From Pseudooceanicola lipolyticus (GTDB lineage: Bacteria; Pseudomonadota; Alphaproteobacteria; Rhodobacterales; Rhodobacteraceae): a stretch of DNA of 64,000 bases. The DNA lies in NCBI RefSeq assembly GCF_002786325.1, contig NZ_PGTB01000003.1, positions 1-64,000 on the forward strand. Direction: 5' to 3'. Shown here piece by piece: positions 22,064 through 44,073 of the stretch (the first letter of the stretch is position 1; the number at the start of each line of letters is the position of its first letter). The position numbers and the translations under genes were made by a program. Under the pieces are notes generated by a model that did no database searches, had not been told where the DNA came from, and saw only the letters and a program-made list of their open reading frames with translations.

Positions 22064-22182
22064 CAAGCTTCCTTTCGTGACTGTTTTTCTTTGCAGCGGC
22101 TGTTCATGCCTCAAGGCGTGATGGAGCCGGTCGCCGCATCCTCTAGCAATAAAACAAACTGAAATACCACCGTATTTTGCTC

Positions 22183-22213
22183 TTGAAGCTCTAGCTACTG
22201 TAGGGGCTATGTC
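22183..22213 (+). promoter_or_regulatory. MerR-type promoter (CadR/PbrR/ZntR-like), upstream of zntA
   Basis: TTGAAG (22183-22188), a 19-bp spacer with the dyad CTCTAG-CTA-CTGTAG (22189-22203), and TATGTC (22208-22213) lie 33 bp before the zntA start. The same pattern occurs at three other sites in the island. Confidence 0.75.
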
Positions 22214-22245: not shown

Positions 22246-24600
22246 ATGCCGTCCGACACCCATCGTCACGACCACGATCACGCCGAAGATGCCCAGACAA
22301 GCGGCGGCAGCTGCTGCGGGAGCGCCGGAACGTGCGGCGACATCGTTCCGGCGACGCCCGCGCCAGAGGGCGGGCGCAGTTTTCAGGTGGCCGGCCTCGA
22401 TTGCGCCGAGGAGGTAGCAATCCTGAACAAGGTGGTCGGCCCGAAGATCGGTGGGGCCGAGCATCTCGCGTTCGACGTGATCAATGGACGGATGACTATT
22501 CTCGACAGCGCCAAGAGTGTATCGGACGGCGAAATTGCAGAACTGGTCGCAAGCACCGGCATGACCGCCAAGCCCTGGGATGCCGAAAAAGCGTCGGTCG
22601 ACCAGGCGGCCCATCTTGCACGACAGCGGCTGTTTACGGCGCTCAGTGGCGGCTTCTGGGCCGCGGGTTTTCTGTGGCACATCATCGAGACCGGCATGGG
22701 CGGGGCGCTCGGCCTCTTCGCGGGTCACGGCGAAGCGCCGATGCCACTGGTCGAGGCAGGGCTATTCGCGGTTGCGATCCTGTTCGGTGTCTGGCTCGTG
22801 GCACCCAAGGCATGGTCGTCCGCTCGGCGGCTGTCGCCCGACATGAACCTGCTCATGGTAGTCGCAGTCGCGGGTGCAATTGGCCTCGGCGAATTTTTCG
22901 AGGCGGCGACGGTCGCGTTCTTCTTCTCGCTCTCGCTTTTCCTCGAAAGCTGGAGCGTCGGGCGTGCGAGGAATGCGGTTTCAGCTCTGCTCGACCTGGC
23001 GCCGCCGACGGCAAGAGTTCTTTATGATGACGGATCGGAAGCGGACGTTCCGGCTTCTGCGGTTGCTATCAACGCACGTTTCGTCGTGCGCGGCGGAGAC
23101 CGCATCCCATTGGATGGTGAGGTTGTCGATGGGGCAGGGGCCGTCGATCAGGCGCCAATCACCGGAGAGAGTGCGCTGGTCCCAAAGGAACGGGGCGACG
23201 ATGTTTATGCCGGTACGATCAACGGCGAAGGCACACTGACGGTGCGCGCCACGAAGGCCGCCTCGGACACCGTCTTGGCCAAGATCATCCGCATGGTCGG
23301 CGACGCCCATGCCCGCCGCGCGCCGGTGGAGCAATGGGTGGCGAAGTTCGCCCGCATCTACACGCCTATCGTCATGGCTCTCGCCATTGCAATTGCCCTG
23401 CTGCCGCCGCTCATTTTCGGTGGGGCTTGGGATTATTGGTTCTACAATGCACTCGTGCTGCTGGTGATCGCCTGCCCGTGTGCTCTGGTCATCTCGACAC
23501 CGGTCTCCATCGTCGCCGCACTCACCGCCTCAGCGCGGGCCGGGGTGCTGATCAAGGGCGGTGCATATGTTGAGGCACCGGGCAAGACCACTGCACTGGC
23601 CATGGACAAGACCGGCACGATCACCATGGGCGAGCCCGAGGTGGCGGCGGTGCATCCGCTGGGTAGAGCATCGGCGCAGGATCTGATGACCCTCGCCGCG
23701 GGGCTCGAGGCACGTTCCTCGCATCCCTTGGCGCGCGCCATTCTCGCGCGGGCAGAAGCCGACGGCATCAAGGTGTCCGCCGCGGAAGATACCCGAACCG
23801 TTCCTGGTAGGGGACTTGAAGGACGCACTGACGGCCGGTCGATCTGGCTAGGGTCGGACCGGTTTGCCGAGGAGAAGGGTTTCGGCGACGCCATTCCGAA
23901 GGATTTGCGCGACCGCATCGAAGGGGCTGGCAGCACCCTTGTTGCCGTGGGCGACGACACCGGCGTGACCGGCATCCTTGAATTGCGCGACCGTATCCGC
24001 CCCGACGCCAAGGGCATCGTGGCACAGCTCCACGCGCAAGGCGTGAAGACCATCGTCATGCTGACGGGCGACAACGAGCGGACAGCGCGCGCTGTTGCCG
24101 CCGAGGTCGGCATCGACGAGGTCCGTGCCGAGCTTCTGCCCGAAGACAAGGTGACAGCCATCGAAGAACTGGTCGAAACGCATGACATGGTGGCCATGAT
24201 CGGCGACGGGGTGAACGACGCCCCCGCCATGGCGCGCGCGCATTACGCCATCGCGATGGGTGCTGTTGGTTCGGACGCGGCAATCGAGACGGCGGATATT
24301 GCCCTGATGACCGACGACCTCGGCAAGGTGCCTTGGCTGATCGGTCATTCGCGCCGGACAATGTCGATTATCCATCAGAACATCGGTATTTCCTTGGCGA
24401 CCAAGGGCGTTTTCGTTGTCGCTACCGCGTTCGGACTGGCATCGATGTGGGGCGCTATTGCAGCCGACGTAGGAGTGTCATTGCTGGTGGTGGCCAACGC
24501 CCTGCGCCTGCTTAACAGCCAAGAGGCCAAGGCGCCGCCGTCCGCCGGTGAACAGGTTGGCGAAGGCTTGGCCAAAGGGGCGCTGGCACATGGTCATTGA
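22246..24600 (+). CDS. zntA: Zn/Cd/Pb-exporting P1B-type ATPase
   Basis: The 784-residue protein begins with a His- and Cys-rich tail, then a degenerate metal-binding domain (GLDCAEE, about 49). Membrane segments, the CPC ion motif (VIACPCALVIS, about 410), the phosphorylation site DKTGT (about 451) and GDGVNDAPA (about 656) follow. CPC with GLDCAEE points to the divalent Zn/Cd/Pb subgroup (ZntA/CadA/PbrA) rather than Cu. It stands behind its own 19-bp-spacer MerR promoter. A relic of the 3' end of a second copy lies at 24929-25041. Confidence 0.9.
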   Translation: MPSDTHRHDHDHAEDAQTSGGSCCGSAGTCGDIVPATPAPEGGRSFQVAGLDCAEEVAILNKVVGPKIGGAEHLAFDVINGRMTILDSAKSVSDGEIAELVASTGMTAKPWDAEKASVDQAAHLARQRLFTALSGGFWAAGFLWHIIETGMGGALGLFAGHGEAPMPLVEAGLFAVAILFGVWLVAPKAWSSARRLSPDMNLLMVVAVAGAIGLGEFFEAATVAFFFSLSLFLESWSVGRARNAVSALLDLAPPTARVLYDDGSEADVPASAVAINARFVVRGGDRIPLDGEVVDGAGAVDQAPITGESALVPKERGDDVYAGTINGEGTLTVRATKAASDTVLAKIIRMVGDAHARRAPVEQWVAKFARIYTPIVMALAIAIALLPPLIFGGAWDYWFYNALVLLVIACPCALVISTPVSIVAALTASARAGVLIKGGAYVEAPGKTTALAMDKTGTITMGEPEVAAVHPLGRASAQDLMTLAAGLEARSSHPLARAILARAEADGIKVSAAEDTRTVPGRGLEGRTDGRSIWLGSDRFAEEKGFGDAIPKDLRDRIEGAGSTLVAVGDDTGVTGILELRDRIRPDAKGIVAQLHAQGVKTIVMLTGDNERTARAVAAEVGIDEVRAELLPEDKVTAIEELVETHDMVAMIGDGVNDAPAMARAHYAIAMGAVGSDAAIETADIALMTDDLGKVPWLIGHSRRTMSIIHQNIGISLATKGVFVVATAFGLASMWGAIAADVGVSLLVVANALRLLNSQEAKAPPSAGEQVGEGLAKGALAHGH

Positions 24601-25104: not shown

Positions 25105-25617
25105 GTGAAAACCATCCGATTTCCCCGCCGCGCCGTCCTGTTGGGCGGGTTGGCAGCGTTTTTGTCTGGCTGTGCCAGCAAGTTCCGCAGCTATGGCGGA
25201 CCCGAGGTGACCCGTGTTCGGCTTTACAAGGGGCAGCGTTTGCTTGTTCTGGACGGAGCCGATCGCGTATTGCAAACCTATCCGGTCGGGCTGGGTTTCG
25301 CTCCTGAGGGTCACAAGCAATTCGAGGGAGACGGCCGGACCCCTGAGGGCGCTTACGTAGTCGATAAGCGCAACCCCGACAGTACGTATCATCTTTCGGT
25401 TGGCATCTCCTATCCGAATGAGGCCGACATAGCCTTCGCTGAAGCGCAGGGCCTTTCCCCCGGCGGCGACATCTTCATCCATGGTGGTCCACGCCCAGGG
25501 ATCGACCCAACGGATGTCCGCGACTGGACAGCTGGCTGCATCGCGGTCACAGATCGGCAGATCGAGGACATCTATGCAATGGTGAAAGACGGAACACCGA
25601 TCGACATCTACGCCTGA
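25105..25617 (+). CDS. L,D-transpeptidase lipoprotein (YafK/ErfK type)
   Basis: The 170-residue protein has a lipobox (FLSGC, Cys about 22) and a YkuD-type domain with FIHGGP (His about 126) and WTAGCIAVT (Cys about 147). The GCIAVT variant resembles the YafK branch, whose members can act as amidases rather than transferases. It starts at GTG 25105, with AGAGG 10 nt upstream. It is downstream of zntA and may be read from the same promoter. The next 219 bases hold nothing recognisable. Confidence 0.8.
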   Translation: MKTIRFPRRAVLLGGLAAFLSGCASKFRSYGGPEVTRVRLYKGQRLLVLDGADRVLQTYPVGLGFAPEGHKQFEGDGRTPEGAYVVDKRNPDSTYHLSVGISYPNEADIAFAEAQGLSPGGDIFIHGGPRPGIDPTDVRDWTAGCIAVTDRQIEDIYAMVKDGTPIDIYA

Positions 25618-25836: not shown

Positions 25837-26838
25837 CTATCCGAGGGCATAGACGATGGTCACGACGGTAATCATGACAACCATGAACATGGAGAATGCG
25901 CCAAGGGCGAGCGTACGGCCCATGTCCCGGTTCGGCTTCTCTACTTTCAGACGCAGTTCCTCCGCGGTTTCCGGAAACTCGAGCGCCGCCGCATTCGATT
26001 GGCGCATCAGGTCGTAGCGGGACGTCCAGCGCCGTTCCTCCGCCGCGTTCCAGCCGTTCAGCACCAGAATGATTGCCGCGATGAGAACCATCGACGACGG
26101 GACCCAGATTACGTAGCCACCGATTGTCTCGTCAGCCAAGGCGCGAAGTCGACCACCGCTCGCTGCGATGATTTCTGATCCATAGAGGGGCACCTCCTTG
26201 AGCGTTTTCAGGGAGCCCAGAAGGATGTTGGAAACGACCACCAGGAACCCTGACATCAGCCGAGCGCCGCGCCGCGCTCCTTCAGGCGGATCACGCAGAT
26301 CGAACAGCATAGCAAAGTACCAAAGCCCAGCAAGCACCATAGACAGATGTGCCAGCGCTTCCATCGCCGCAATACGTTGTGTAAGGGCGTAGATCATCGG
26401 GATCTGCCAGACGAAAAGCGCACCAATCAACAAGGAGGTGGCAGATGCAGGAAGCGCCAAGAATCGCGGGATGCGCGCACGCCCAATCGCGGCAAGGCGT
26501 CGGCGCCCTTCCCTTTTCAATCCGGCTTGAAGGCCAAGCCAGGGCTGAGAAACCGCGATAAGAAGCGGTCCTACCAGTCGCAGAAGAAGATGCTCGACCT
26601 GATGTACCGAAAACAGACTGTGCCCCAATGGCGCGAGCGGCCCGTTCGTCGCGACGAGGACGGCTGCGAGGCCGACAAAGAAGGCGGTTCGACGCCAACC
26701 AGAAACCCTTCCGAGACAGCGAGCGTGTATTTTGAGCCCACGCAAAAACAGCCATACTGTAAGACCGACAACAATGAGCGACACCGGTGACAGCACATAG
26801 CCGAAAGGGTCGTAAAGGAAGAAGAAGTTCGTGATCAT
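25837..26838 (-). CDS. CtaG-like cytochrome oxidase assembly membrane protein
   Basis: The 333-residue protein has about seven membrane segments and conserved caa3_CtaG features: a hydrophobic run with SVHQVEHLLLRLVGPLLIA (about 76-94), VWQIPMIYAL, and AALAHLSMVLAGLWYF. CtaG-type proteins help assemble copper-containing cytochrome oxidases. It starts at the ATG overlapping the previous stop (ATGA), and is the last gene of the 13-gene operon. Confidence 0.8.
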   Translation of the reverse strand: MITNFFFLYDPFGYVLSPVSLIVVGLTVWLFLRGLKIHARCLGRVSGWRRTAFFVGLAAVLVATNGPLAPLGHSLFSVHQVEHLLLRLVGPLLIAVSQPWLGLQAGLKREGRRRLAAIGRARIPRFLALPASATSLLIGALFVWQIPMIYALTQRIAAMEALAHLSMVLAGLWYFAMLFDLRDPPEGARRGARLMSGFLVVVSNILLGSLKTLKEVPLYGSEIIAASGGRLRALADETIGGYVIWVPSSMVLIAAIILVLNGWNAAEERRWTSRYDLMRQSNAAALEFPETAEELRLKVEKPNRDMGRTLALGAFSMFMVVMITVVTIVYALG

Positions 26839-28772
26839 TCGCTCTGGCCCTCGCTCATCCGAGGGTTGTCGGAGGTAGCCGGTGTGAGCCGCGAGGTCCC
26901 GGAAGCGCCGCCACGGGCCAGTGACAGATCGGTCGACATGGCGAGGTATTCGCCTTGTATCCACGAGGGAAAGAGATTGTCGTAGAATCGAGATAGCGGA
27001 TGTCCCGACTGTCCGGCGGGCGTGATGTAGTATGATCCCGCTGCTTCCGATATCGACATGACCGCCTGAAAATTGCTTCCGGCACTCACAAGGAATGGAC
27101 GGTCTTCTTCAACACCAAATGATGTCAAGAATTGCGTAAACGGATCGCCTGAAATCGGCGCTTGAAGGGACAGCAGGTCGGTCAGCAACCCACGTGAACT
27201 GATCGGCGACCACTGCATGTCCAATCTATGCTCCTCCCCCCAGGTCCACGTCGAGGGATCGCGCCCATATCGATCGACCAGCCAGCCAAGGGCATCATCC
27301 AGGGCCACGCGAACCTGCTCCTCGCATGTCTCGCGAGGTGAGGATAGGCGGATGTCGCACCAGATTGCGCTACCGCGACGATCGCTGAGTACCGCATAAA
27401 GAAAGTTCGGGTTCGGACGGGTCCAGAGTTGCTGCGCTGCCGGAAATTCGTCTTTCAAAATGCGCTGCTGCAAAGCCCGGAGCCAAGTCCAGAACAGCAG
27501 AGGTTCCGGTGAATAGCGATCCATGTCGCCATTCCACGACGCAAGCCTGTCCAGTAGTTCACGACGAAGGTCGTTCGCATCGGTGCCTTCGATGCTGTCT
27601 CTGGACTGCACGAACCAAAGCTCCTTCGCCATCAGGGGCAGCAGGGTTCGCGCCACGGTACTTACGGTGTCCCTTTGAACACCGATGGCGCCTTCAGTCG
27701 AGAAGATCGATTGCCGCGCTTCAAGCTCCGCCAGTCGAATGTCGCGAAATGACAACGCTCGTACGGCTTCCTCTTTTGGCCATCGGGCAACGGTCTCTCG
27801 GTCAATGGCCAATGCCTCCATGCCTTTCGGCAACATGTCTGCGGCAACTCCGATGGCATCGGTCGCGTCGGCCGAACGCGTGAACAGCTCCAGCATCGTC
27901 AGGAAACCTGCCGCCTGCACGGGTGACGGCCCCCTTGGTGCCTCCTCGTCTGGCACGGGAAATGACCGGAAGGCCCAGGCGACGCGCGTATTGCGACCGA
28001 CAATAACGAAAGGTACGCCCGGCATCGTGGCCCCTATGGCCGGCCCTGTCGAAAACTGAAGATCGGCGAGATACCATTCCGAGGGCAGCGACAGGGAACC
28101 GCTGATATCGGCGGCGAGAATTGGTGTCCCGGCAGCGGTTCGGTCACCGTCTATCGCCCATGCATCGAGGCGCTGCTGCGGATCAGTCGCAAATAGTTCG
28201 AGCACTTTTGGTCGATCCGACGGTATAATTGCACTTGATAAGCTCGGCGTTCCTTTCCGTGCGCTTTCCGGTCGCAGGCCATTCAGGAAAGACCGGGCAA
28301 TCCTCAGGCTATCGCCAGGTGTCCAGGCATCGATCGACCGTTCGTCTGCGATCAACAGTTCCGGCGAGCCTCTGCCGCGCCCTCCCGCCGACACCAGCTC
28401 GAGCCACGCATTGACGCCGGCGGCATAGGATTCGAGCGCGTCTGAGACCGCTGGCGCAACGGACAATGTCTCATCGGATGGCCAAGAAGCTTCGGCCATT
28501 CGCCTTGCCCTTAACAGCTGACCGAGTCGGTCTTGCGCATGAACGAAGCCGATCGCGAAATAGACATCCGCGGCGGAACTCGCGGTAATGTGCGGGATTG
28601 CCGAGGCATCTCGCAGAATATCGACCGGTCCACCTAAGCCTGCTACCGAGAAGTCCTCGTTGTAGTCGGGAACGGATGCGCTCAGCAGAAAATAGACCAA
28701 CCCGGAACCAACCGATGCCGTGATACAGATCGCCAAGAACCCGTACAGTAATATGTTGAAAAGACGTCTCAC
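26835..28772 (-). CDS. Penicillin-acylase-family protein lacking the nucleophile
   Basis: The 645-residue protein has an N-terminal membrane anchor (about 7-30). Family landmarks are FVHAQDRLGQL (about 76-86), AIDGDRTAAGTPILAAD (about 207-223) and GRNTRVAWAF (about 262). Active members have Gly-Ser-Asn just before the AxxGxRTxxGxP stretch, where Ser becomes the N-terminal nucleophile after self-cleavage. Here the matching residues read RLDAWAI, so Ser is replaced. It is also shorter than usual (about 750-850 aa). It is therefore probably not an active acylase and may serve as a binding protein in the envelope operon. Confidence 0.75.
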   Translation of the reverse strand: MRRLFNILLYGFLAICITASVGSGLVYFLLSASVPDYNEDFSVAGLGGPVDILRDASAIPHITASSAADVYFAIGFVHAQDRLGQLLRARRMAEASWPSDETLSVAPAVSDALESYAAGVNAWLELVSAGGRGRGSPELLIADERSIDAWTPGDSLRIARSFLNGLRPESARKGTPSLSSAIIPSDRPKVLELFATDPQQRLDAWAIDGDRTAAGTPILAADISGSLSLPSEWYLADLQFSTGPAIGATMPGVPFVIVGRNTRVAWAFRSFPVPDEEAPRGPSPVQAAGFLTMLELFTRSADATDAIGVAADMLPKGMEALAIDRETVARWPKEEAVRALSFRDIRLAELEARQSIFSTEGAIGVQRDTVSTVARTLLPLMAKELWFVQSRDSIEGTDANDLRRELLDRLASWNGDMDRYSPEPLLFWTWLRALQQRILKDEFPAAQQLWTRPNPNFLYAVLSDRRGSAIWCDIRLSSPRETCEEQVRVALDDALGWLVDRYGRDPSTWTWGEEHRLDMQWSPISSRGLLTDLLSLQAPISGDPFTQFLTSFGVEEDRPFLVSAGSNFQAVMSISEAAGSYYITPAGQSGHPLSRFYDNLFPSWIQGEYLAMSTDLSLARGGASGTSRLTPATSDNPRMSEGQSE

Positions 28773-28796
28773 GTCGGTGCCGTTTCGAAACCCTTC

Positions 28797-28964
28797 TCAT
28801 GCAAAGATGCGCAAGAGGACCACCGAAACGAAATAGGTGAGAAGACCGAAGGCGATCGCCGAACTCGCCGCATACTGGAGGATATCCAGCCGGTTTCCTT
28901 TTCGGCGTCGCGCCAGATTTCCACCCCAGATCGCACCCGCGACAATGCCCGCGATTACCAGCAT
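28797..28964 (-). CDS. Small two-segment membrane protein
   Basis: The 55-residue protein has a hydrophobic N-terminus with a Gly zipper (IAGIVAGAIWGG), a basic loop (ARRRKGNRLD) and a second membrane segment. I recall similar short proteins being labelled apolipoprotein acyltransferase only because they lie next to lnt, as here; it has no acyltransferase motif. It overlaps the 3' end of lnt by 10 nt. Confidence 0.65.
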   Translation of the reverse strand: MLVIAGIVAGAIWGGNLARRRKGNRLDILQYAASSAIAFGLLTYFVSVVLLRIFA

Positions 28965-30568
28965 GACTTTTTCTCCGTTCTTGTTCTCTTGTTGCACCGG
29001 TGTGTGCCGACCAGACCTGCAGCCAGTCCCACGGCCCAAGTAGTGAAGATGAGAGCCAGCAGCGCCCAGTCGCCGAAGCGCGCATAGAGCGTTGACGGAT
29101 GAGCAGAGGGCAGAGCCGCATCTATTACACCGGTTTCTCCGTTGCCGAGCCGCGCGACGAGGTCACCGTTCGCGTCGATGACCGCGGAGATGCCCGTATT
29201 CGCGGCTCGGATGACAGGAAGGCCTTCCTCTACGGCGCGCATCCGTGCGGAAGCCAGATGCTGCTCGGGTCCGATGCTGGTGCCGAACCAGGCGTCGTTT
29301 GTCGCGTTGAAAATCCAGTCAGGTCGGAACAGGTCGTCGACCACATGGCCTGGGAAGATGATCTCATAGCAGATCGCCACGGCGACCAGCGGCAGACCCG
29401 GAAGCGCAAGCGTTCGCGGGCCCGGACCGGGCGTAAAGTCGCCCAGCCCCGCTGTCAGCCGCTCGATCGGCAACCAGCCGCGGAATGGCACGTATTCGCC
29501 GAAGGGCACGAGATGGTGTTTCGCGTATCCGGTCAGGATTCTGCCGGTCTCGTCAAATGCCTGAACCGTGTTGAAATATCGGGTGCCATCCTCGCTCGGT
29601 ACACGGTCCGGCACACCTGTGAGCAGCACCCTGCCGTCTTGCAGCGCAGCGGCAATGCGGGCCCGGGCCTCCGTATCCTCATCGAGGAAACCCGGAAAGG
29701 CGGTTTCCGGCCAGAGAAGAACGTCGAAATCGCCGGGCCGGGTTGAAAGCTCAAGATAGCGCGCGAAGGTCGCCTCGCGGTTCTCGGGCGCCCATTTCTC
29801 CCCTTGGGGAATGTTGCCCTGAACGATGCGCAGGTCGACACCGGGTGGCTGTTGTGTATCCGACTGGAGGTTAAGCGTCCCGACGGCCCAAATAGCCGCG
29901 ATGCCGGCCAGCGCCATGAGCGAAACGGTCAATCGTTGCCGCCCGGACGCCATGACAGCCGCGCCGGGGAGTACCGCGACGAACACGGTGAGAAAGCTTA
30001 GCCCATAGCTTCCGACCCAGGCGGCGGTCTGGCGAAGGGCGGCGTAGTCTACAAGTGCGTAGCCGGCGAGGTTCCATGGAAACCCTGTCAGAACGTGACC
30101 ACGCAACCACTCTGCCACGGTCCAGGAGGTCGCGAACGCGAGGCAGGCCAAGAGACTGCCCATGGCTCCGCGCCGCGTGATTTCGGCGAAAAGCGCGGCG
30201 GCAATGGCCGGGAAAATCGCGAGACCTGCGGACAATCCCGCGACGGCCGGGATCGCCATCGTCCCGAACCGCTCGGCCTCGACGTAAAAACTTTCCGCGA
30301 TCCACGAAATCCCGAAACCGAACTGGCCAAGACCAAACGCCCAGCCGACGAGGAAAGCGCGCCCGAAGGAGAGATCGCGAAGACCGACAAACAACGCGGA
30401 ATAGGCAACGGGAACAAGCAGGAGAAGCGAGAAAGGCGGGAAAGTCAGAACGGTCAGCGCCCCGGCGACGAAACCAAGCGTCATCCGCGAAAGCAAACGG
30501 TGGCGCAGTGCTATGCGGTTCAGAATTTCCGGCTTCACGATTTGATCGGACGCCGCACGCTGATCCAT
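28955..30568 (-). CDS. lnt: Apolipoprotein N-acyltransferase
   Basis: The 537-residue protein has about seven membrane segments in its first half and a nitrilase-like catalytic domain with Glu in LWPETAFPG (about 287), Lys in YAKHHLVPFGEY (about 350) and Cys in AICYEIIFPG (about 404), the complete Lnt triad. It adds the third acyl chain to lipoproteins at the inner membrane. The start at 30568 overlaps the lspA end by 34 nt; upstream in-frame starts lie deeper in lspA. An accessory copy in a metal operon is unusual. Confidence 0.92.
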   Translation of the reverse strand: MDQRAASDQIVKPEILNRIALRHRLLSRMTLGFVAGALTVLTFPPFSLLLLVPVAYSALFVGLRDLSFGRAFLVGWAFGLGQFGFGISWIAESFYVEAERFGTMAIPAVAGLSAGLAIFPAIAAALFAEITRRGAMGSLLACLAFATSWTVAEWLRGHVLTGFPWNLAGYALVDYAALRQTAAWVGSYGLSFLTVFVAVLPGAAVMASGRQRLTVSLMALAGIAAIWAVGTLNLQSDTQQPPGVDLRIVQGNIPQGEKWAPENREATFARYLELSTRPGDFDVLLWPETAFPGFLDEDTEARARIAAALQDGRVLLTGVPDRVPSEDGTRYFNTVQAFDETGRILTGYAKHHLVPFGEYVPFRGWLPIERLTAGLGDFTPGPGPRTLALPGLPLVAVAICYEIIFPGHVVDDLFRPDWIFNATNDAWFGTSIGPEQHLASARMRAVEEGLPVIRAANTGISAVIDANGDLVARLGNGETGVIDAALPSAHPSTLYARFGDWALLALIFTTWAVGLAAGLVGTHRCNKRTRTEKKSCW

Positions 30569-31017
30569 GGCGCGGCGAGCAAGAGCCCCACGCCACTGAC
30601 AACAAATATATCGGCCATGTTGAAGGCAGGCCAATGTGTTGTGACAATGTAGAAATCGAGAAAGTCTGTTACAGCCCGATACCGCACACGATCGATAACA
30701 TTGCCCAAGGCTCCGCCAATGATCGCGCCATAGGCAAGTGTTTCGACCGCATTATCGGCGCGAAACAGCATAACCCCCAGCCAAACACAGATGGCAAGAG
30801 CGAGAGCGATGAGGCTCCACCACGGCGCGCCGCCCAACATCCCGAAAGTCACGCCGTCATTACGATAAAAGACGAGGTTGAATCCCGGAAACACGGGAAT
30901 CCCGGCGCTTAAAGTGACGGCATTCGCAACGACAATGGCTTTGGTGATCTGATCGATCGCGAACGCAGCAAGTGCTGCGAAGACGCCGATCATCGGAGAT
31001 ACCTTGTTTAGTGACAT
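30535..31017 (-). CDS. lspA: Lipoprotein signal peptidase (signal peptidase II)
   Basis: The 160-residue, four-segment membrane protein has the LspA motifs FAIDQITKAI (about 19), RNDGVTFGML (about 52) and both catalytic Asp regions, GGALGNVIDRVRY (about 106) and FNMADIFVVSG (about 131). It cleaves prolipoproteins before their modified Cys. An LspA gene (pbrC) is also part of the known pbr lead-resistance operon of Cupriavidus, which fits the Zn/Cd/Pb-type regulator here. It starts 4 nt after the ZIP gene. Confidence 0.92.
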   Translation of the reverse strand: MSLNKVSPMIGVFAALAAFAIDQITKAIVVANAVTLSAGIPVFPGFNLVFYRNDGVTFGMLGGAPWWSLIALALAICVWLGVMLFRADNAVETLAYGAIIGGALGNVIDRVRYRAVTDFLDFYIVTTHWPAFNMADIFVVSGVGLLLAAPWISVRRPIKS

Positions 31018-31021
31018 TGCC

Positions 31022-31804
31022 TCATCCCAACCAGACATCAAGGAACAGCATCAGAACGAGCCCGACTGCGAGACCGAGCGTCGCCCTGTTCTGATGGCCG
31101 CTGCGATGGGTTTCGGGGATGATTTCGTGGCTAATGACGTAGAGCATTGCGCCCGCGGCAAAGGCCAGACCCCATGGAAGCAGCGGTTCCGACAGTGTGA
31201 TGATGCCGGCCCCGAGCAGACCGCCAATCGGCTCGACCATGCCAGTCAGCGCCGCGATGCCCCAGGCGCGCAGCTTCGGATATCCCTCGCCCAGCAGAGA
31301 TACAGCGACGGCCAATCCTTCGGGCGCATTCTGAAGCCCGATGCCGATGGCGAGCGGCAGACCGCCCTCCATACCTCCGGATCCGAAGCCGACCCCCACG
31401 GCAAGGCCTTCGGGGAAGTTGTGGATCGTGATCGCAATGATGAACAGCCAGACCCGCCGCAGAGACGCCGCTTCGGGCCCTTCGCGTCCCGTCTTGAAGT
31501 GCTCGTGCGGCAGCTTTTCGTTCATCATGGCGACAGCCCCCATGCCCAAGAGGATCGAGACGCATACGATGGCCGCAGGCATCGCACCGTTCTCGAACAT
31601 CGGCTCGGCCGCATCCAATGCCGGGATGATCAGCGAAAAGAAGGAAGCGGCGAGCATCACACCGGCAGCGAAGCCGAGCGACAGATCGCGTGTGGCCCGC
31701 GACGGGATGCGTCCAAACAACACGGGAACTGCTCCGACTGCCGTGAGCGATCCGGCGGCAAGGCTTCCGAGGAAGCCGAGCATGATCGGAGAGAGGTTTT
31801 CCAT
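31022..31804 (-). CDS. ZIP-family metal transporter (ZupT/GufA-like)
   Basis: The 260-residue protein has eight predicted membrane segments and the ZIP sites TIHNFPEGLAVG (about 122-133) and LQNAPEGLAVA (about 152-162), with a cytoplasmic His loop (PHEHFK) before them. Such proteins move Zn and other divalent cations inward or across the inner membrane. It lacks the extra periplasmic domain of the ZIP at 13841. It lies in the 13-gene operon between DUF411 and lspA. Confidence 0.88.
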   Translation of the reverse strand: MENLSPIMLGFLGSLAAGSLTAVGAVPVLFGRIPSRATRDLSLGFAAGVMLAASFFSLIIPALDAAEPMFENGAMPAAIVCVSILLGMGAVAMMNEKLPHEHFKTGREGPEAASLRRVWLFIIAITIHNFPEGLAVGVGFGSGGMEGGLPLAIGIGLQNAPEGLAVAVSLLGEGYPKLRAWGIAALTGMVEPIGGLLGAGIITLSEPLLPWGLAFAAGAMLYVISHEIIPETHRSGHQNRATLGLAVGLVLMLFLDVWLG

Positions 31805-31816
31805 GGGCGGGCCAGA

Positions 31817-32272
31817 TTATCCTTCGGCGTAGCTCGAAAAGACTTCCGTCGACCCGTCCTCGCGGATGAGGATGACATCATAGGCCTCGCGGTCGTCTTC
31901 TGGCCCCATGCCGGGCGAGCCATAGGGCATCCCAGGCACGGCGAGACCGACTGCGTCCGGGCGCTCATCGAGAAGGCGGCGGATGTCAGCGGCCGGTACA
32001 TGGCCTTCGATCACGTAGCCGTCAATGAGCGCGGTGTGGCAGGAGACCATGCGCTGCGGCACGCCGTTGTCGAGCTTGAAGCGAACCAGCGACCCACCGA
32101 ACATGTCCTGGCCGGTCGGCACAAAACCGTTCTCTTCGAGGTGGTTCATCCACGAGAGGCAGCAGCCGCAACCGTTGGTCTTGCGGACGTCGATCGCCGT
32201 TGCCTCTGCGAGGGCCTGGGCCGCTGGGAACAGGGCGAGCGTGATGGCAAGAGCTTGCGTCATGCGTTTCAT
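31817..32272 (-). CDS. DUF411 metal-binding protein (paralogue 2)
   Basis: The 151-residue protein has a signal peptide (about 1-22), the Cys motif TNGCGCCLSW (about 32), a conserved Cys in MVSCHTALIDGYVIEGHVP (about 77) and VPGMPYGSPGMG (about 117). It resembles the paralogues at 19766 and 41641. It is the only DUF411 gene in the Zn/Cd/Pb-type operon. Confidence 0.85.
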   Translation of the reverse strand: MKRMTQALAITLALFPAAQALAEATAIDVRKTNGCGCCLSWMNHLEENGFVPTGQDMFGGSLVRFKLDNGVPQRMVSCHTALIDGYVIEGHVPAADIRRLLDERPDAVGLAVPGMPYGSPGMGPEDDREAYDVILIREDGSTEVFSSYAEG

Positions 32273-32275
32273 GGG

Positions 32276-33649
32276 TCAGAGCCTTTCGGTTGTCGTTTTG
32301 GCAATCTCGCTGCCGAGGTTTTCATTCAGAAGCGCCCGCGCCTCGGCCAGACGCGAGAGCGCGGCGGTATCATCCGCATCGCTCTCGGCCGCTTCGGCGA
32401 GCCGGTCGTCAGAGAGGGGGTCAGTCGGGCGCCCATCCACGAGCACCTCATAGTGCAGGTTCGGACCTGTCGCCGTGCCAGTCGCGCCGACGCGGCCGAT
32501 CACGTCTCCCGCCGCAACGCGTTGGCCTTGTACCAAGTCTTCCGGCACGGCGCTCAGATGCGCGTAGCGCGTCATGGTGTCGGAGCCGTGCAAGATTTCG
32601 ACCACGCGACCATATCCGCCGCGCCAGCCGATGAAATTGACCCGCCCCGGTGCCGTCGCTTGAACCGGTGTCCCACGTGCCGCTGCGAAATCGACGCCGG
32701 TGTGCATCCGGACGTTGCCAAAGACCGGATGCGTGCGGCGCCCGAACACCGAGCTGAGGCGCGCACCCTCGACCGGCTGTGCGAAGACGCGCAGCACCTC
32801 GCCATCGACGTAGATCGTCGCCTGACCGCTGCCGTCGTCAGGCCATACGATCTCATAGAGCGAACCGCCGATCTCCAATGCCGCGAAGGCAAGATCGGGT
32901 TGTCCGATCCTGTCCTCGCCCACACGCGCCTCGCGCCAGAGAAGCCTTAGTGTCTCGCCACCGGCCATCTCGCGGCGGAAATCCACGGTCCCACCCAGCA
33001 TCTGCGCAAGGTCCACGGAAAAACGGGCGGGTATGCCGGCTTCGTCGAGTGCCGCGAAGATCGAGCTGTCGATCACGGCTTCGCCGGCAAGGGTTACGAT
33101 CTCCGGATCCGGAGCCACGACCTGTGTGGACAACTGCTCGCCGAAAACCACCTCGATCCGCACTCCGTCCTCGACGGCGAGTGAGACGGTGCGGGGGCTG
33201 CCGTCCACGGTCGAAGCAACAGTGACCGAGTGCCCCGGCCGCAGCCGTCGCAGATCGTATTCCGCGCCAAGCGCGAGGGCAACTTCGGCTCTGTCAGGTG
33301 CCGCAAGACCAGCTTCAGACAGCAAGAAATCGAGCGTCTCGCCAGGTGCAATGTCGCGCGACCATGTCGACAGGGGTGGCTTGATCGCCTGCACGGGCCT
33401 GTCGGCAAACGCGACCTGCAGAAGGGGCAGGGGGCCGAGGTCGGGTGCATCTTCTGCCCATGCCGTCGCGGGCAGCGTCACGAGGATGTCAACGTTTTGG
33501 GGAGCTTCAGGACCTTGGGGCATCCATTTACCTGCCGAGGCAAGTTCCGGCGGCACGGGTTCTTTCGACATGAAATCAGAGAGGGCGATAGCCGCTCCCG
33601 AAACCATCCCCGCAATTGCGACACAAGCCGCCATAGTTCTGAGCCTCAT
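32276..33649 (-). CDS. M23-family metallopeptidase
   Basis: The 457-residue protein has an N-terminal anchor or signal, a LysM/SH3-like middle and a C-terminal M23 (lysostaphin-type) domain with the Zn ligands HTGVDF (His and Asp, about 325) and LHYEVLVDG (about 405). This set is typical of MepM/NlpD-type endopeptidases that cut peptidoglycan cross-links. The start is the ATG overlapping the Sco stop (ATGA); longer in-frame extensions into the sco gene are shadows. It adds a wall-cutting function to an operon that also holds lipoprotein enzymes. Confidence 0.88.
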   Translation of the reverse strand: MRLRTMAACVAIAGMVSGAAIALSDFMSKEPVPPELASAGKWMPQGPEAPQNVDILVTLPATAWAEDAPDLGPLPLLQVAFADRPVQAIKPPLSTWSRDIAPGETLDFLLSEAGLAAPDRAEVALALGAEYDLRRLRPGHSVTVASTVDGSPRTVSLAVEDGVRIEVVFGEQLSTQVVAPDPEIVTLAGEAVIDSSIFAALDEAGIPARFSVDLAQMLGGTVDFRREMAGGETLRLLWREARVGEDRIGQPDLAFAALEIGGSLYEIVWPDDGSGQATIYVDGEVLRVFAQPVEGARLSSVFGRRTHPVFGNVRMHTGVDFAAARGTPVQATAPGRVNFIGWRGGYGRVVEILHGSDTMTRYAHLSAVPEDLVQGQRVAAGDVIGRVGATGTATGPNLHYEVLVDGRPTDPLSDDRLAEAAESDADDTAALSRLAEARALLNENLGSEIAKTTTERL

Positions 33650-34272
33650 GTCGCCCCCTCCGTTTCTTCTTCCAGCGCGCGGCGAATTTTCGGCACCGCG
33701 AATTCTCTGGGTTCGTGATAGTCGATCATGGTGACGAACCGCCCAGAGGCTGCGAACAGGAAGACGCTCGCGCTGTGGTTCATCGTGGAATCGCCGCTCT
33801 CCGTCGGCACCCTTTCGTAGGTGGCGTGGAAGCCGTCCGCGACGCGCGCTATCTGCTCCTCCGGCCCCGTCCAGCCACGGATCGCAGGATGGAAGTAGCC
33901 GACATATTCGGCCATCGTTTCGACGGTGTCGCGCTCGGGATCGACCGTGATGAAAACCACGTTCATCTCGCCGGCCTCGTCTCCCAGATCGTCGAGCCAT
34001 CCCGAAATGTCAGAAAGCGTGGTCGGGCAGACATCGGGACAGTAGGTGAAGCCGAAGAACGCCATCGTCGGGCGCCCGATCAGGGTTTCCGGCCCGACCG
34101 CGTTGCCCTCATGATCCGTCAGACGGAAATCCATCTCGGTCAGAGCCACAGGCCGCTGCCCGACAGGTTCGGGTCCACCCGCACCATCGACCTGCCACCA
34201 ACCGACGAAGAGCATCAGGGCGACCGCCCCGACACCGGCCACGCCATACCCCAGGATCGCCCGTCGTCGCAT
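33646..34272 (-). CDS. SCO1/SenC-family copper chaperone (paralogue 1)
   Basis: The 208-residue protein has an N-terminal membrane anchor (about 9-28) and a thioredoxin-like domain with the Cu-binding CPDVCP motif (about 78) and a distal His, probably in STMNHSASVF. Sco proteins load the CuA site of cytochrome oxidase or act as thiol reductants. Its start overlaps the stop of the PCu(A)C gene (TGATG). Confidence 0.9.
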   Translation of the reverse strand: MRRRAILGYGVAGVGAVALMLFVGWWQVDGAGGPEPVGQRPVALTEMDFRLTDHEGNAVGPETLIGRPTMAFFGFTYCPDVCPTTLSDISGWLDDLGDEAGEMNVVFITVDPERDTVETMAEYVGYFHPAIRGWTGPEEQIARVADGFHATYERVPTESGDSTMNHSASVFLFAASGRFVTMIDYHEPREFAVPKIRRALEEETEGAT

Positions 34273-34739
34273 CAATTTCGGGGGCCACGAGCGGCAATAC
34301 CTCTCACTCTCACGTTGACTGGCATACGTCCGCCGTCGTCGAACAGGAGATCGAGTTGAATGCTGTCGCCCTCAACAAGCGGTTCTTGCAAACCCATCAA
34401 CATGATATGCAGACCGCCTGGCTCGAAAACCAAATCGTTGCCCGGCCTGAGAAGAATTTCCCCCGCAGGCTCCATGGTCGAGATCCCATTTGCGTCGATT
34501 TTCAAGCGGTGTGCTTCGGCGCGTTTAGCTATCGTGGTCTCAAAGCCGATCAGTTTCACGGCGTCGCCGCCTGTGTTTCTCAGTGTGAAGTAAACGGCAG
34601 CCGGGCGGCTGACGCCAATTGTAGCCCGGGCCCAAACGTCATCGACCAAGATTTCCTGCGAGTCGGCCGCAACGGGCGTCGAAAGCCCTCCAAAGGTCAA
34701 AAGCGCGGCCAGCGCGCCAGTCAAAATCTTTTCTTTCAT
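34272..34739 (-). CDS. PCu(A)C periplasmic copper chaperone
   Basis: The 155-residue protein has a signal peptide (about 1-25) and the PCu(A)C fold with the H(M)X10MX21HXM-like ligands EAHRLKIDANGISTME (about 75-90) and GGLHIMLMGL (about 109). It carries Cu(I) to Sco and oxidase; here it sits directly before a Sco gene, which is the classical arrangement. Confidence 0.9.
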   Translation of the reverse strand: MKEKILTGALAALLTFGGLSTPVAADSQEILVDDVWARATIGVSRPAAVYFTLRNTGGDAVKLIGFETTIAKRAEAHRLKIDANGISTMEPAGEILLRPGNDLVFEPGGLHIMLMGLQEPLVEGDSIQLDLLFDDGGRMPVNVRVRGIAARGPRN

Positions 34740-34762
34740 CGTTCTGATCCTGCCCTTTCCAT

Positions 34763-35422
34763 TCAGCTTTGCGCGGCAGCGACTTCGGCAGCCACCAATC
34801 GGCGCAGTTCTGCCTCCCCGAACGGATCGAGCGGCTTGCCGTTCACGAAGAATGTGGGCGTCTGGCGAATTCCCACGGTCTCGACGTCAGCACGATCCTG
34901 GTTCAGGATCGCCACGACATCGGGTGCCAGCATTTGCGTGCGCGCGGCCTCGGCATCGAGTCCGGCCGTGGCGGCGATCTGAAGGATCAGGCCAGGCGCC
35001 GGGGCACCGTGCGACGCCCATCTCGGCTGTTCCCGCAGAACGGCCTCGAGCACCGGCACGTAAACGTCCTGCATGCGCGCCGCCTCGAGCACGCGGATCG
35101 CTTCCTCGGATGCCGCGCCGTGGAAGGGCGTGTAGCGGATCACGACGCGGACAGCATCCCCATGCTCGGCCATGATGTCCTTCACGATGGGATGAAAGGC
35201 GCGACAGGCCTCGCAGGCCGGATCGAAGAATTCGACGATCGTGACGGGCGCTTCCGCAGGCCCGAGGATGGGCGAGTAGGGGCGGATCATCGCGTCCGCG
35301 AGTTCCGGCGCAACAGGCTCCGCTTCGGTCACCGGGCCGGGGCGGGTTGCAAACCAGGTGGCTCCGCCGAAACCGGCGACGCCGAGGGCGAGAACGGACA
35401 GGATCAGGCCGCGTCGGTTCAT
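34763..35422 (-). CDS. DsbA-like thiol oxidase
   Basis: The 219-residue protein has an N-terminal anchor and a DsbA-type thioredoxin fold with active site FDPACEACRAFHP (CEAC, about 71) and cis-Pro in RQTPTFFVNGKPLDPFG (about 188). It oxidises periplasmic thiols and pairs with the DsbB gene upstream (ATGA overlap). Confidence 0.88.
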   Translation of the reverse strand: MNRRGLILSVLALGVAGFGGATWFATRPGPVTEAEPVAPELADAMIRPYSPILGPAEAPVTIVEFFDPACEACRAFHPIVKDIMAEHGDAVRVVIRYTPFHGAASEEAIRVLEAARMQDVYVPVLEAVLREQPRWASHGAPAPGLILQIAATAGLDAEAARTQMLAPDVVAILNQDRADVETVGIRQTPTFFVNGKPLDPFGEAELRRLVAAEVAAAQS

Positions 35423-35841
35423 GTTCGTGTGTCCTTCAATGAAAGGGCCGACAGCGCCCCGATCAGCGCGAAGGCGGCGAGCGCCATCAGCGGGATCGGG
35501 ACGCCGAAGACCAGTTGGTTGTCATCGGTGCAAGAGGGGCCGGTGGCCGTGCAGGGCTGGATGCGTTCGGGAACAAGACCGACGTACAGCCCCATGTGCC
35601 AGAGGGCGATTGCGCCGCCGCCAAGCGCCAATGCGATGCCGTAGCGTCCCACGCGGCCGTCCCGCCACCAAAGGCCGAGCCCGAGGAGAATGGCCAAGGG
35701 GAACATGAAGGCGCGCTGGAACCAGCACAGCACACAGGGCGTCTGCCCCAGCACCTCGCCGATGAAAAGCACGGCAAGCGAGGCGACGAGCGCGATGATC
35801 CACGCCAGCCCGAGGGCTGTTTCTCCGGATATGCGGTTCAT
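35419..35841 (-). CDS. dsbB: Disulfide bond formation protein B
   Basis: The 140-residue protein has four membrane segments, the first Cys pair TPCVLCWFQR (about 34-43) and a second Cys pair in the periplasmic loop (IQPCTATGPSC, about 94-104), as in DsbB, which reoxidises DsbA with quinone. ATG 35841 matches the family start. It couples the operon to the respiratory quinone pool. Confidence 0.9.
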   Translation of the reverse strand: MNRISGETALGLAWIIALVASLAVLFIGEVLGQTPCVLCWFQRAFMFPLAILLGLGLWWRDGRVGRYGIALALGGGAIALWHMGLYVGLVPERIQPCTATGPSCTDDNQLVFGVPIPLMALAAFALIGALSALSLKDTRT

Positions 35842-35846
35842 GTCGG

Positions 35847-36449
35847 TCAAATCCTCTCTTCCAGATCGGCGAGGATCTCTTCGGCCGGGGTGCCATAGGG
35901 CCATGAGTCGGCAAAACCTGCCTCGGGGTCGAAGAGGAACAGATGCGACGTGTGGCCCATCGTGTACCCATCCGGCGCTGCGGCCTCTTCGACGCGCTCA
36001 AAGAAGATTGGAAACGTCTCGGACGTGGCGGCGATCTGTTCCGGCGTGCCCGTCAGCCCGATGATGCCCGCATCGAACAGCGGGACGTATTCGGCGAGTG
36101 CTGGGGGCGTGTCTCGTTCAGGGTCGATTGTTATGAAAATCGGCTGGACCTTGGCGGCATCGTCGCCCAGACCGTCCATCACCGCCGCGACCTCTGACAG
36201 GGTCGTCGGGCAGACGTCGGGGCAGTTGGTAAAGCCGAAAAAAACCAGCATCCAGCGCCCCGCAAAGTCCTCCTCGGTTTGAACCATACCCTGGTGGTCC
36301 GTCAGTTCGAACTCAGCGAAAAAAGGCGGTTCGGCGTCGGTTCGGGCGCTATCGGCACGATAATCGGACCATAGCAAAAGCCATACGAAGGCAAGCGCTG
36401 CCACGCCTGCCAAAACCCAAAGAAACTTCTGTGCCGATGTAAGGGACAA
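35847..36449 (-). CDS. SCO1/SenC-family copper chaperone (paralogue 2), first gene of the 13-gene operon
   Basis: The 200-residue protein has an N-terminal anchor (about 9-27), the CPDVCP motif (about 76) and a distal His in MGHTSHLFLF (about 167). The only start that keeps the anchor is TTG at 36449, which is preceded by AGG-rich sequence; no upstream ATG exists in this frame. It lies 36 nt after the -10 of the minus-strand MerR-type promoter at 36485-36515. Confidence 0.85.
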   Translation of the reverse strand: MSLTSAQKFLWVLAGVAALAFVWLLLWSDYRADSARTDAEPPFFAEFELTDHQGMVQTEEDFAGRWMLVFFGFTNCPDVCPTTLSEVAAVMDGLGDDAAKVQPIFITIDPERDTPPALAEYVPLFDAGIIGLTGTPEQIAATSETFPIFFERVEEAAAPDGYTMGHTSHLFLFDPEAGFADSWPYGTPAEEILADLEERI

Positions 36450-36484
36450 TCCTGTTTGCCTGTTTTTGATTCTTATTGCATGTG

Positions 36485-36515
36485 CGGATACATCCTCTAG
36501 CCGCTAGAGGTTCAA
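36485..36515 (-). promoter_or_regulatory. MerR-type promoter of the 13-gene envelope operon
   Basis: On the minus strand TTGAAC (36515-36510), a 19-bp spacer with the perfect dyad CTCTAG-CGG-CTAGAG (36509-36495), and TATCCG (36490-36485) form a MerR-type promoter. It lies in the gap between the operon and the divergent MerR-family gene at 36621, so it is also the likely autoregulatory site. Confidence 0.78.
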
Positions 36516-36620
36516 GCACGAAATTATGGTATAGCTTGAACTCACGCGTCTGTGAATCCGACACTTGTTTATTCCGACGGCAAAACCTACACAAACTGTA
36601 CCTTTTTCATGGAGGCGAAA

Positions 36621-37049
36621 ATGCTCACGATCGGTACTCTGTCAAAGAAGACTGGCACAAAAGTGCAGACCATCCGGTACTACGAACAGATCGGACTCAT
36701 GCCCGAACCTGGCAGGACCGAAGGCGGACAGAGGCGCTACGACAATGCACAGCTTGATCGACTGTCCTTCATCCGCCACTCGCGACAACTCGGTTTCTCG
36801 CTCGTTGCGATCCGCGAGCTGCTCGACCTCAGCGACCATCCCAACCGGCCCTGTGATGAGGCTGATGCCATCGCGCGTCGCCAGCTCAAACAGGTGGAGC
36901 AGCGCATGGCCCGCCTGAAGGCGCTGCGAACGGAACTGAAACGCATGGTTCACGAATGCAGCGGCGGGCGGACGGGAGATTGCAAGGTGCTTGAGGTGTT
37001 GCGGGACCATTCGGAATGCTTGACCGAACACGAGGAAATCGGGGCCTGA
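36621..37049 (+). CDS. MerR-family Zn/Cd/Pb-type metal sensor
   Basis: The 142-residue protein has the MerR HTH (TIGTLSKKTGTKVQTIRYYE, about 3-22), a dimer helix and a C-terminal metal loop HECSGGRTGDC. Cys78, Cys113 and Cys121 match the ligands of divalent-metal sensors (ZntR, CadR, PbrR); Cu(I) sensors have Ser in place of Cys78. ATG 36621 has GGAGG 6 nt upstream. It is divergent from the 13-gene operon and is followed by a CDF transporter. The exact metal cannot be decided from sequence. Confidence 0.9.
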   Translation: MLTIGTLSKKTGTKVQTIRYYEQIGLMPEPGRTEGGQRRYDNAQLDRLSFIRHSRQLGFSLVAIRELLDLSDHPNRPCDEADAIARRQLKQVEQRMARLKALRTELKRMVHECSGGRTGDCKVLEVLRDHSECLTEHEEIGA

Positions 37050-37131
37050 AGGAATTCAGCCAACATTCCGGCTGGAACGCAGATCAGCCGCAGAAGTTAA
37101 TGTGTCGTACAACACAAGCTGGAACCACAAA

Positions 37132-37731
37132 ATGGCCGCTAGACAAGATTCAATGGAGAGACGGACGCTTTGGATCGTTCTGGCGCTCAATATCGGTTTG
37201 GCCGTGGCCTTTTTCGCAACAGGCGCCTTCGGCGATTCAAGTGCCCTGATCGCCAACGGGCTCGATAACCTCTCCGACAGCTTCGTCTACGCGATCAGCC
37301 TTTTCGCTTTGTCCCGATCCGCCAAATGGAAACGCGGGGCGGCGAACGTTTCCGGCGGGCTGCTGATCCTGTTCGCTGCAGGCATCCTCTACGATGCGTG
37401 GCGCCGCTACATCGGTGGGTCAGATCCGCTCGGGACGATCATGCTTGCAATGGCCCTGATCGCGGCGGCTATCAACGCAGTCTGCGTTTGGCTGCTCGCT
37501 AAGCTCAAAAATCCAAATGTCAACATCCGCGCGGCCAACACCTTCAGTTACAACGATTTCGCCGCGAACCTCGGGATCGTCGTGGCCGGTGGCCTCGTCG
37601 CCTGGCTAGGAACCAACTGGCCGGACCTTGTCGTCGGTGTGATCGTCGCCGGGATCGCGGCCTGGGGCGGTATCGACATCCTGCGCGACGCACACGGCGA
37701 ACACCACAAAGCGGTTCACACGGACAAATAG
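37132..37731 (+). CDS. Cation diffusion facilitator-like transporter, short form
   Basis: The 199-residue protein has five to six membrane segments and the CDF signature ALIANGLDNLSDSFVYAISL (about 38-57; Asp pair) with a second site YNDFAANLGIVVAG (about 140). It lacks the C-terminal cytoplasmic domain of full CDF proteins. The start is uncertain: GTG 37102, ATG 37132 or ATG 37153; 37132 has GGAA 8 nt upstream. It follows the MerR gene by 82 bp and probably shares its transcript. Confidence 0.8.
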   Translation: MAARQDSMERRTLWIVLALNIGLAVAFFATGAFGDSSALIANGLDNLSDSFVYAISLFALSRSAKWKRGAANVSGGLLILFAAGILYDAWRRYIGGSDPLGTIMLAMALIAAAINAVCVWLLAKLKNPNVNIRAANTFSYNDFAANLGIVVAGGLVAWLGTNWPDLVVGVIVAGIAAWGGIDILRDAHGEHHKAVHTDK

Positions 37732-37760
37732 TTGCGGGAGATTCTTTCTGAAAGAAAGGG

Positions 37761-37791
37761 TTGAAGCTATAGTGACTATAGCAACTAGTCT
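37761..37791 (+). promoter_or_regulatory. MerR-type promoter (CadR/PbrR-like), upstream of transglutaminase and CDF
   Basis: TTGAAG (37761-37766), a 19-bp spacer with the perfect dyad CTATAG-TGA-CTATAG (37767-37781), and TAGTCT (37786-37791). The CTATAG arms resemble CadR and PbrR operators most closely. Confidence 0.72.
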
Positions 37792-37826
37792 TGTTCCAAG
37801 ACGATTCGAGGAGCGACCCGTTGCAG

Positions 37827-40085: not shown

Positions 40086-40175
40086 ACCTGAAACCGGCCT
40101 CGCCTGCTGCGAGGCCTGATTGTTGCCTTGGCCGAAGCTGGCTGAGTGCGACCCTTTCAGATCAAGGCAGTTGCG

Positions 40176-41615: not shown

Positions 41616-41640
41616 AACTCACACACTTAGGACCATGAAA

Positions 41641-42108: not shown

Positions 42109-42165
42109 TCAATCGCGCGGTCTGGTGCGAACCCGTGCCAGACCGGTTTCAAGGGAAAACAAAGG

Positions 42166-42309: not shown

Positions 42310-42321
42310 AGATGTGCCAGA

Positions 42322-43991: not shown

Positions 43992-44018
43992 ATCCTAGCA
44001 AAAGTCCACTGCTCACCC

Positions 44019-44049: not shown

Positions 44050-44073
44050 TTAATCATCGAAAGGACTTTCTGG

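Follow-up and report, generated by a model that had tools for sequence, protein, structure and literature searches.

The window analyzed here is a stretch of 64,000 nucleotides from Pseudooceanicola lipolyticus (positions 1 to 64,000 of contig NZ_PGTB01000003.1, assembly GCF_002786325.1), and is part of a contig of 121.8 kb. It contains thirteen minus-strand genes, from 36449 to 25837, which are preceded by a MerR-type promoter and are referred to here as the envelope operon. A divergent gene encodes a MerR-family regulator, and the same promoter box is found upstream of genes for an L,D-transpeptidase, a P-type ATPase, and a transglutaminase-like protein paired with a CDF exporter. The operon and its regulator comprise the following features, assigned by Pfam except where stated.

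36624 to 37049, plus strand: MerR-family regulator, divergent from the operon (Pfam MerR domains; best structures 5gpe and CadR 6jgv)
36488 to 36516, minus strand: operon promoter with a perfect dyad at 36494 to 36510 (dyad and pattern scan)
35847 to 36449, minus strand: Sco_a (SCO1/SenC)
35419 to 35841, minus strand: DsbB
34763 to 35422, minus strand: DsbA-like thioredoxin-fold protein
34272 to 34739, minus strand: PCu(A)C copper chaperone, divergent allele
33646 to 34272, minus strand: Sco_b (SCO1/SenC)
32276 to 33649, minus strand: M23 peptidase, MepM/Shy-like (below NCBIfam cut-offs)
31817 to 32272, minus strand: DUF411 protein with CGCC (also PDB 6wis, E 2.7e-33)
31022 to 31804, minus strand: ZIP family transporter
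30535 to 31017, minus strand: LspA, signal peptidase II (GN.IDRV and FN.AD motifs present)
28955 to 30568, minus strand: Lnt, apolipoprotein N-acyltransferase (WPET, KxxLVPFGEY, and ICYE motifs present)
28797 to 28961, minus strand: 54-amino-acid protein with hydrophobic stretches and no family (Pfam and NCBIfam scans)
26835 to 28772, minus strand: penicillin-acylase relative of 645 amino acids, nucleophile serine absent (Pfam and alignment)
25837 to 26838, minus strand: Caa3-type CtaG

All thirteen reading frames are open, and their coordinates place them at most 24 bp apart, with several short overlaps. The junctions (in bp, minus for overlap) are Sco_a/DsbB +5, DsbB/DsbA -4, DsbA/PCu(A)C +23, PCu(A)C/Sco_b -1, Sco_b/M23 -4, M23/DUF411 +3, DUF411/ZIP +12, ZIP/LspA +4, LspA/Lnt -34 (with the Lnt ATG at 30568), Lnt/small gene -7, small gene/acylase relative +24, and acylase relative/CtaG -4. 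Twelve of the thirteen proteins score above a Pfam cut-off, and the Pfam scan assigns the 54-amino-acid protein to no family. Among the thirteen there is no Pfam match to lit or lgt; lgt is annotated farther away in a Sulfitobacter faviae plasmid (L049) and in a second locus (L067). The RefSeq relative of Sco_a in the S. faviae plasmid uses a later start.

The operon box is a perfect dyad, CCTCTAG-CCG-CTAGAGG, contained within CTTGAAC-N19-TATCCG in the gap that separates the operon from the divergent MerR gene. A preliminary description of this DNA had reported the close-packed genes and the single MerR-type promoter, both of which are confirmed, and had proposed a metal-induced programme that rebuilds the envelope. 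That proposal is strengthened by an observation beyond it, namely that the box also precedes three other units, at 20976, 22182, and 37760. These units and the genes beside them are as follows.

20976 to 21004, plus strand: second promoter copy, 1 mismatch (pattern scan)
21018 to 21731, plus strand: L,D-transpeptidase (YkuD; Pfam), with the box upstream
22182 to 22210, plus strand: third promoter copy, 3 mismatches (pattern scan)
22246 to 24600, plus strand: Cd/Zn/Pb-type P-type ATPase (Pfam and NCBIfam), with the box upstream
25105 to 25617, plus strand: second YkuD protein, with a lipobox (LSGC) and no box of its own (Pfam)
37102 to 37731, plus strand: small CDF-like transporter adjoining the regulator (Pfam)
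37760 to 37788, plus strand: fourth promoter copy, 6 mismatches to the operon box (pattern scan)
37791 to 38582, plus strand: transglutaminase-like protein (Pfam), with the box upstream
38494 to 39528, plus strand: CDF exporter, reading frame overlapping the transglutaminase gene, true start probably further in (reading-frame list and family scans)

Five dyads with at most 3 mismatches occur in the window, where 1.17 are expected, and one of 100 shuffles reached five. They are located at the operon, at 20982 (L,D-transpeptidase), at 22188 (ATPase), and at two weak sites, 13042 and 13676. A longer promoter pattern adds the site at 37760, directly upstream of the transglutaminase-like gene, and all four promoters conform to TTGAA[C/G]-N19-TA with a dyad. 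Because this pattern was built from the window's own sites, recovering them is no test of it, and the test is its scarcity elsewhere. The 5.23-Mb assembly contains five matches with at most 1 mismatch, four of which are at these four units, whereas the reversed pattern has none. The fifth (G000:C400:16897-16923) adjoins a MerR homologue (49%) and a CDF gene. In the window as compared with the reversed window, the pattern has 6 versus 0 matches at up to 6 mismatches, 7 versus 1 at 7, and 12 versus 5 at 8.

The box was also sought up to 220 bp upstream of each gene in 35 sources. It is found upstream of Sco_a in 31 of 31 cases (at most 4 mismatches), the ATPase in 30 of 30, and two L,D-transpeptidase orthologues in 22 of 22 (both at most 5). 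A third transpeptidase has it in 3 of 3 (at most 6), a fourth in 0 of 2, and the transglutaminase in 22 of 23 (at most 7). It accompanies the small CDF gene beside the regulator once in 21, the flanking YkuD gene with the lipobox in 0 of 30, and internal operon gene starts in 0 of 385. In a lineage with 66% identity, the boxes are altered in sequence and occupy the same positions.

The preliminary description had named internal promoters or terminators as elements that might divide the operon. The operon interior in the window has no box at up to 7 mismatches, and the interior of the scanned region has one sigma-70-like site (2.2 expected from shuffles) and eight terminator-like sites (10.8 expected). 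Together with the absence of boxed internal starts, these counts speak against a split operon, and the thirteen genes may be expressed as a single transcript.

DNA matches to the region are present in 111 plasmid records, 48 of which cover 80% or more of the 11.3 kb. Of the 111, 38 are from Pseudosulfitobacter and are nearly identical among the matches listed. Searches with the acylase-like protein found 27 loci in species genomes, which contain its gene by construction; 23 have all thirteen genes in order, and the remaining four have a consistent part. Searches with Lnt reveal shorter variants. Phaeobacter inhibens pP70_a lacks the small gene, the acylase relative, and CtaG. Dinoroseobacter shibae pDFL36-01 carries a relative of the small gene that is not annotated and lacks the other two, and P. 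pseudonitzschiae P2 has only the small gene of the three. A locus on a 5.56-Mb contig (L072) lacks CtaG. The first ten genes occur on two plasmids of D. shibae DFL 12, and of the 139 records that match this core, 41 cover 80% or more of it.

The order of the genes thus recurs, and the conserved unit is smaller than the thirteen genes first described: it comprises about ten genes, from Sco to Lnt, with the small gene, the acylase relative, and CtaG as optional additions. At a threshold of 1e-100, the acylase relative is found in 11 of 395 genomes of the family (its own included) and the M23 gene in 4 of 385 genomes of the class (its own included), the other three being from other families. Of these three, L086 has no ZIP match, L087 has neither a DUF411 nor a ZIP match, and L085 differs in its 5' half. 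Gene order is conserved strongly, not absolutely.

The acylase relative belongs to the penicillin acylase (Ntn hydrolase) family, as the preliminary description had suggested (PF01804, 289.4 bits, cut-off 21.3). A further observation is that its nucleophile is absent. Leucine directly precedes [D/N]AW in all 27 aligned cassette copies and also in L072 and L073, so that 29 of 29 lack the serine, whereas the GASN serine is found at the corresponding place in all eight chromosomal forms shown. Because the alignment gap falls at the serine, this residue has been either replaced or deleted. The cassette form also lacks the peptide preceding the serine and a segment following GRNxxxAW, and it is 645 amino acids long, as compared with 776 to 793 for full-length chromosomal homologues (open frames, two truncated ones excluded). 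The missing nucleophile argues against an active acylase, and the protein is very probably neither a hydrolase nor another enzyme. Its ratio of nonsynonymous to synonymous divergence (dN/dS) of 0.20 to 0.23 in five of seven pairs indicates that it is nevertheless kept. AlphaFold2 prediction for the acylase relative, run on 16 close relatives, had a mean pLDDT of 35.3, which is too low for use.

Lnt and LspA are enzymes with assigned catalytic residues, and alignments to 5n6m and 6ryo show that the corresponding motifs are retained. Further LspA copies are found at two other places in the genome, one of them on the window's contig. Additional Lnt sequences consist of two partial matches on other contigs, and the genome has YkuD domains at a total of eight places. 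The window's contig also carries a second, small unit (G000:C303:102272-104000) with relatives of DUF411 (66%), LspA (53%), and CDF (38%). Flanking the operon, at 17260 to 20777 and 40146 to 46646, are genes for multicopper oxidases and redoxins, a cytochrome c, a DsbD/CcdA-type protein, a further Sco (the third), and two DUF411 proteins besides that of the operon. The S. faviae plasmid has three L,D-transpeptidase genes upstream of the ATPase gene (4849 to 7800) and, at 31048 to 38138, lgt and genes for a second P-type ATPase, a CDF, and a Rieske protein.

The two Sco proteins, PCu(A)C, CtaG, DUF411, and DsbA/DsbB suggest that the operon could instead serve copper supply and respiration, by maturing copper oxidases, denitrification enzymes, and c-type cytochromes. 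Metal control would then couple this maturation to metal status, and LspA, Lnt, and the wall genes would serve lipoprotein or cytochrome clients. The available part of one report describes D. shibae transposon mutants that are impaired in anaerobic denitrifying growth (PMC4886583). By position, these map to genes for CcdA and a pair of cation transporters that adjoin the ten-gene core, which keeps this alternative alive, although the same part reports no mutant in the core. CtaG is absent from several variants, and a respiratory role leaves unexplained why an L,D-transpeptidase, an ATPase, and a CDF exporter share the box. We regard this alternative as a serious contender that is nonetheless unlikely.

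The metal that is sensed bears on a second alternative. The regulator reaches no NCBIfam equivalog cut-off: CueR (TIGR02044) scores highest, at 115.3 against a cut-off of 147.4, and CadR/PbrR (TIGR02047) scores 109 against 151.45. Its three cysteines align with those of CadR 6jgv and of 5gpe, which we take to be PbrR. In the PbrR and CadR structures, these three cysteines bind metal. The ATPase behind the box passes the Cd-type cut-off (509.6 versus 313.5) and just misses the Cu cut-off (383.6 versus 397). The earlier assignment to Zn/Cd/Pb-type sensing is thus upheld by the cysteines and the ATPase, and not by the equivalog scores. A divalent-type sensor (Zn/Cd/Pb class) is likely.

A differently spelled MerR-type box, CTTCCAGTTACTGGAA, which is presumably CueR-like, lies at 44018 to 44046. 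A separate CueR above its cut-off (161.1 bits) is encoded at 48545 to 48964, next to a P-type ATPase with HMA domains. This box and the CueR and ATPase genes (48545 to 51491) seem to form a separate copper circuit on the same island. Control of the operon by CueR is disfavoured by the regulator's own score and by this true CueR within the window.

The favoured metal is zinc. A plasmid of Tritonibacter mobilis BBCC367 carries the whole operon and its neighbours. According to the available part of a proteome study of this organism, covering 16 conditions that included Cu, Zn, Ni, and Co, CzcD PEPIB2_31 was detected only at 1 mM Zn (PMC6308992). On the T. mobilis plasmid, the CDF gene that follows the transglutaminase gene, with a box of 7 mismatches, comes 31st among the tags of the RS series, and it is therefore probably the gene for this CzcD. 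In the accessible part of another report, a 102-kb D. shibae plasmid, which might carry the operon, was linked to no difference for Cu, Co, or Zn and to slight silver resistance (PMC9426580).

If the MerR protein instead sensed Cu(I) or a mixture of metals, then the locus would be an ordinary copper-resistance operon. The copper chaperones, the top CueR score, and the near miss of the ATPase to the Cu cut-off are consistent with this idea. However, the PbrR/CadR-like cysteines, the separate CueR, and the putatively assigned T. mobilis CDF, detected only with Zn (PMC6308992, in part), make it improbable.

Operon genes have dN/dS of at most 0.38 over seven locus pairs, except for the acylase relative and CtaG in two pairs involving L040, where values of 0.45 to 0.65 occur at a dS of 0.02 to 0.03 and thus reflect few changes. 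Between L038 and L037, dS is 0.71 to 1.48 from Sco_a to Lnt and 0.09 to 0.22 from the small gene to CtaG, which indicates in-place recombination of blocks. PCu(A)C of the window shares 45 to 55% identity with its counterpart in 22 of 23 loci, whereas identity to L022 is 100%. The gene (34272 to 34739) appears as a divergent allele swapped in place, with neighbours mostly above 90% identity in close loci. The S. faviae plasmid matches the window in one piece through PCu(A)C. Such mosaicism, the optional 3' genes, the PCu(A)C swap, and a rearranged 5' half in L085 might be taken as a sign that useful plasmid genes have gathered loosely downstream of a metal promoter and have no joint function, but this is very improbable because order is mostly kept through recombination, most comparisons show purifying selection, and a separate L,D-transpeptidase gene carries the same box.

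The cad, znt, and pbr operons are MerR-controlled Zn/Cd/Pb operons, and pbr includes an LspA gene. The present locus resembles them in its MerR regulator, 19-bp-spaced dyad promoter, Cd/Zn/Pb-type ATPase, and, for pbr, LspA. What sets it apart is the operon of thirteen envelope genes, together with the box shared by an L,D-transpeptidase gene and a transglutaminase-CDF pair. A megaplasmid cluster of Stutzerimonas zhaodongensis (cadR, CDF, ZIP, lnt, lspA) likewise places a MerR-type regulator beside CDF, ZIP, Lnt, and LspA. Its Lnt and LspA are just 34 to 38% identical to those of the window, its nearest box has 8 mismatches, and no Sco, Dsb, PCu(A)C, M23, DUF411, acylase relative, or CtaG is annotated in the stretch.

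The lit2-lgt2 copper operon of Listeria and Enterococcus is also mobile and metal induced and combines extra lipoprotein-processing genes with metal resistance genes, according to the available part of PMC8275575, which cites Armbruster 2019 for it. However, it is Gram-positive, has Lit2 and Lgt2 instead of LspA and Lnt, and is not said in that part to include genes for the wall, disulfides, or copper sites. The E. coli NlpE/Cpx response similarly ties metal stress to lipoprotein maturation but, as the accessible part of PMC6538781 describes it, is a two-component system encoded on the chromosome that reacts to envelope damage, rather than a plasmid cassette that senses metal. No description of the operon as a unit was found in titles and abstract openings of the open-licence papers that the searches listed, and the available part of PMC12016528 does not mention it. 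The known kind is thus MerR-controlled metal resistance, and the new element is an envelope operon, an L,D-transpeptidase, an ATPase, and a transglutaminase-CDF pair behind one box, for which any function is deduced from gene content.

We favour, with moderate confidence, a MerR-controlled regulon, transmissible and shared on plasmids by marine bacteria, that would help cells to survive a thiol-seeking divalent metal of the Zn/Cd/Pb class by combining export with extra envelope copies. The regulator would bind metal and activate the four promoters with 19-bp spacers, and thereby the envelope operon, the L,D-transpeptidase, the Cd/Zn/Pb-type ATPase, and the transglutaminase-CDF pair. The transporters would reduce cytosolic metal, and the operon would supply added periplasmic machinery bearing thiol or metal sites. 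Its added functions may be disulfide formation (DsbA/DsbB), copper delivery to oxidases (Sco, PCu(A)C, and CtaG), lipoprotein maturation (LspA and Lnt), and, with the L,D-transpeptidase, wall turnover (M23). This extra dosage would replace envelope functions poisoned by metal. In favour of this reading are the concentration of pattern matches at the four units, the box survey in 35 sources, the full gene order in 23 of 27 loci despite mosaic divergence, the regulator's low CueR score alongside a true CueR, the Cd-type score of the ATPase, the probable Zn-only detection of the T. mobilis CDF, and the retained LspA and Lnt motifs. The overall interpretation in the preliminary description is partly supported.

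Several observations weigh against the regulon as proposed. Its main weakness is that the sensor appears to be of the Zn/Cd/Pb type, while the published envelope targets are of the copper type. In their available parts, one source lists L,D-transpeptidases, lipoprotein maturation, and disulfides among copper targets (PMC9302775), and another reports that copper impairs lipoprotein acylation, with cutE being lnt (PMC6538781); both otherwise favour the regulon, which carries genes for these functions along with copper-site chaperones and exporters. The T. mobilis study, in its available part, found CutE (Lnt), copy not stated, at 1 and 5 mM Cu (PMC6308992). The transglutaminase box is weak, differing in most loci at 6 or 7 positions (at 7 in T. 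mobilis), and is missing in the S. faviae plasmid, where an IS66 element lies between. Because the surveyed sources are related, the box counts overstate the independent evidence. L085 (G605, 5437 to 14287), on a 2.75-Mb contig, has an M23-to-Lnt block 93 to 99% identical, a different and seemingly unrelated 5' half in another gene order (CDF, DsbB, DsbA, Sco, and PCu(A)C), and no box at 6 mismatches. Finally, metal-proofed isozymes were considered and rejected: the cysteine and histidine content of the plasmid Lnt, LspA, and L,D-transpeptidase does not differ clearly from that of other genome copies (for the transpeptidase, three of five other loci tried gave an alignment).

Because the LspA and Lnt motifs are retained and the cysteine and histidine content gives no sign of metal-proofing, extra dosage is the simplest mechanism for the regulon. 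A more specific proposal, which we make tentatively, is a strategy of spare parts: besides exporting metal, the plasmid regulon may sense a cytosolic divalent metal and supply further copies of the envelope enzymes that metals poison, those for lipoprotein maturation, L,D-cross-linking, disulfides, and copper-site assembly, with the nucleophile-less acylase fold added as a membrane-anchored binding or scaffold protein. Metal resistance has mostly been described as export or sequestration. If the proposal is true, then replacing damaged envelope functions would be a resistance strategy in its own right, under the same switch as the exporters.

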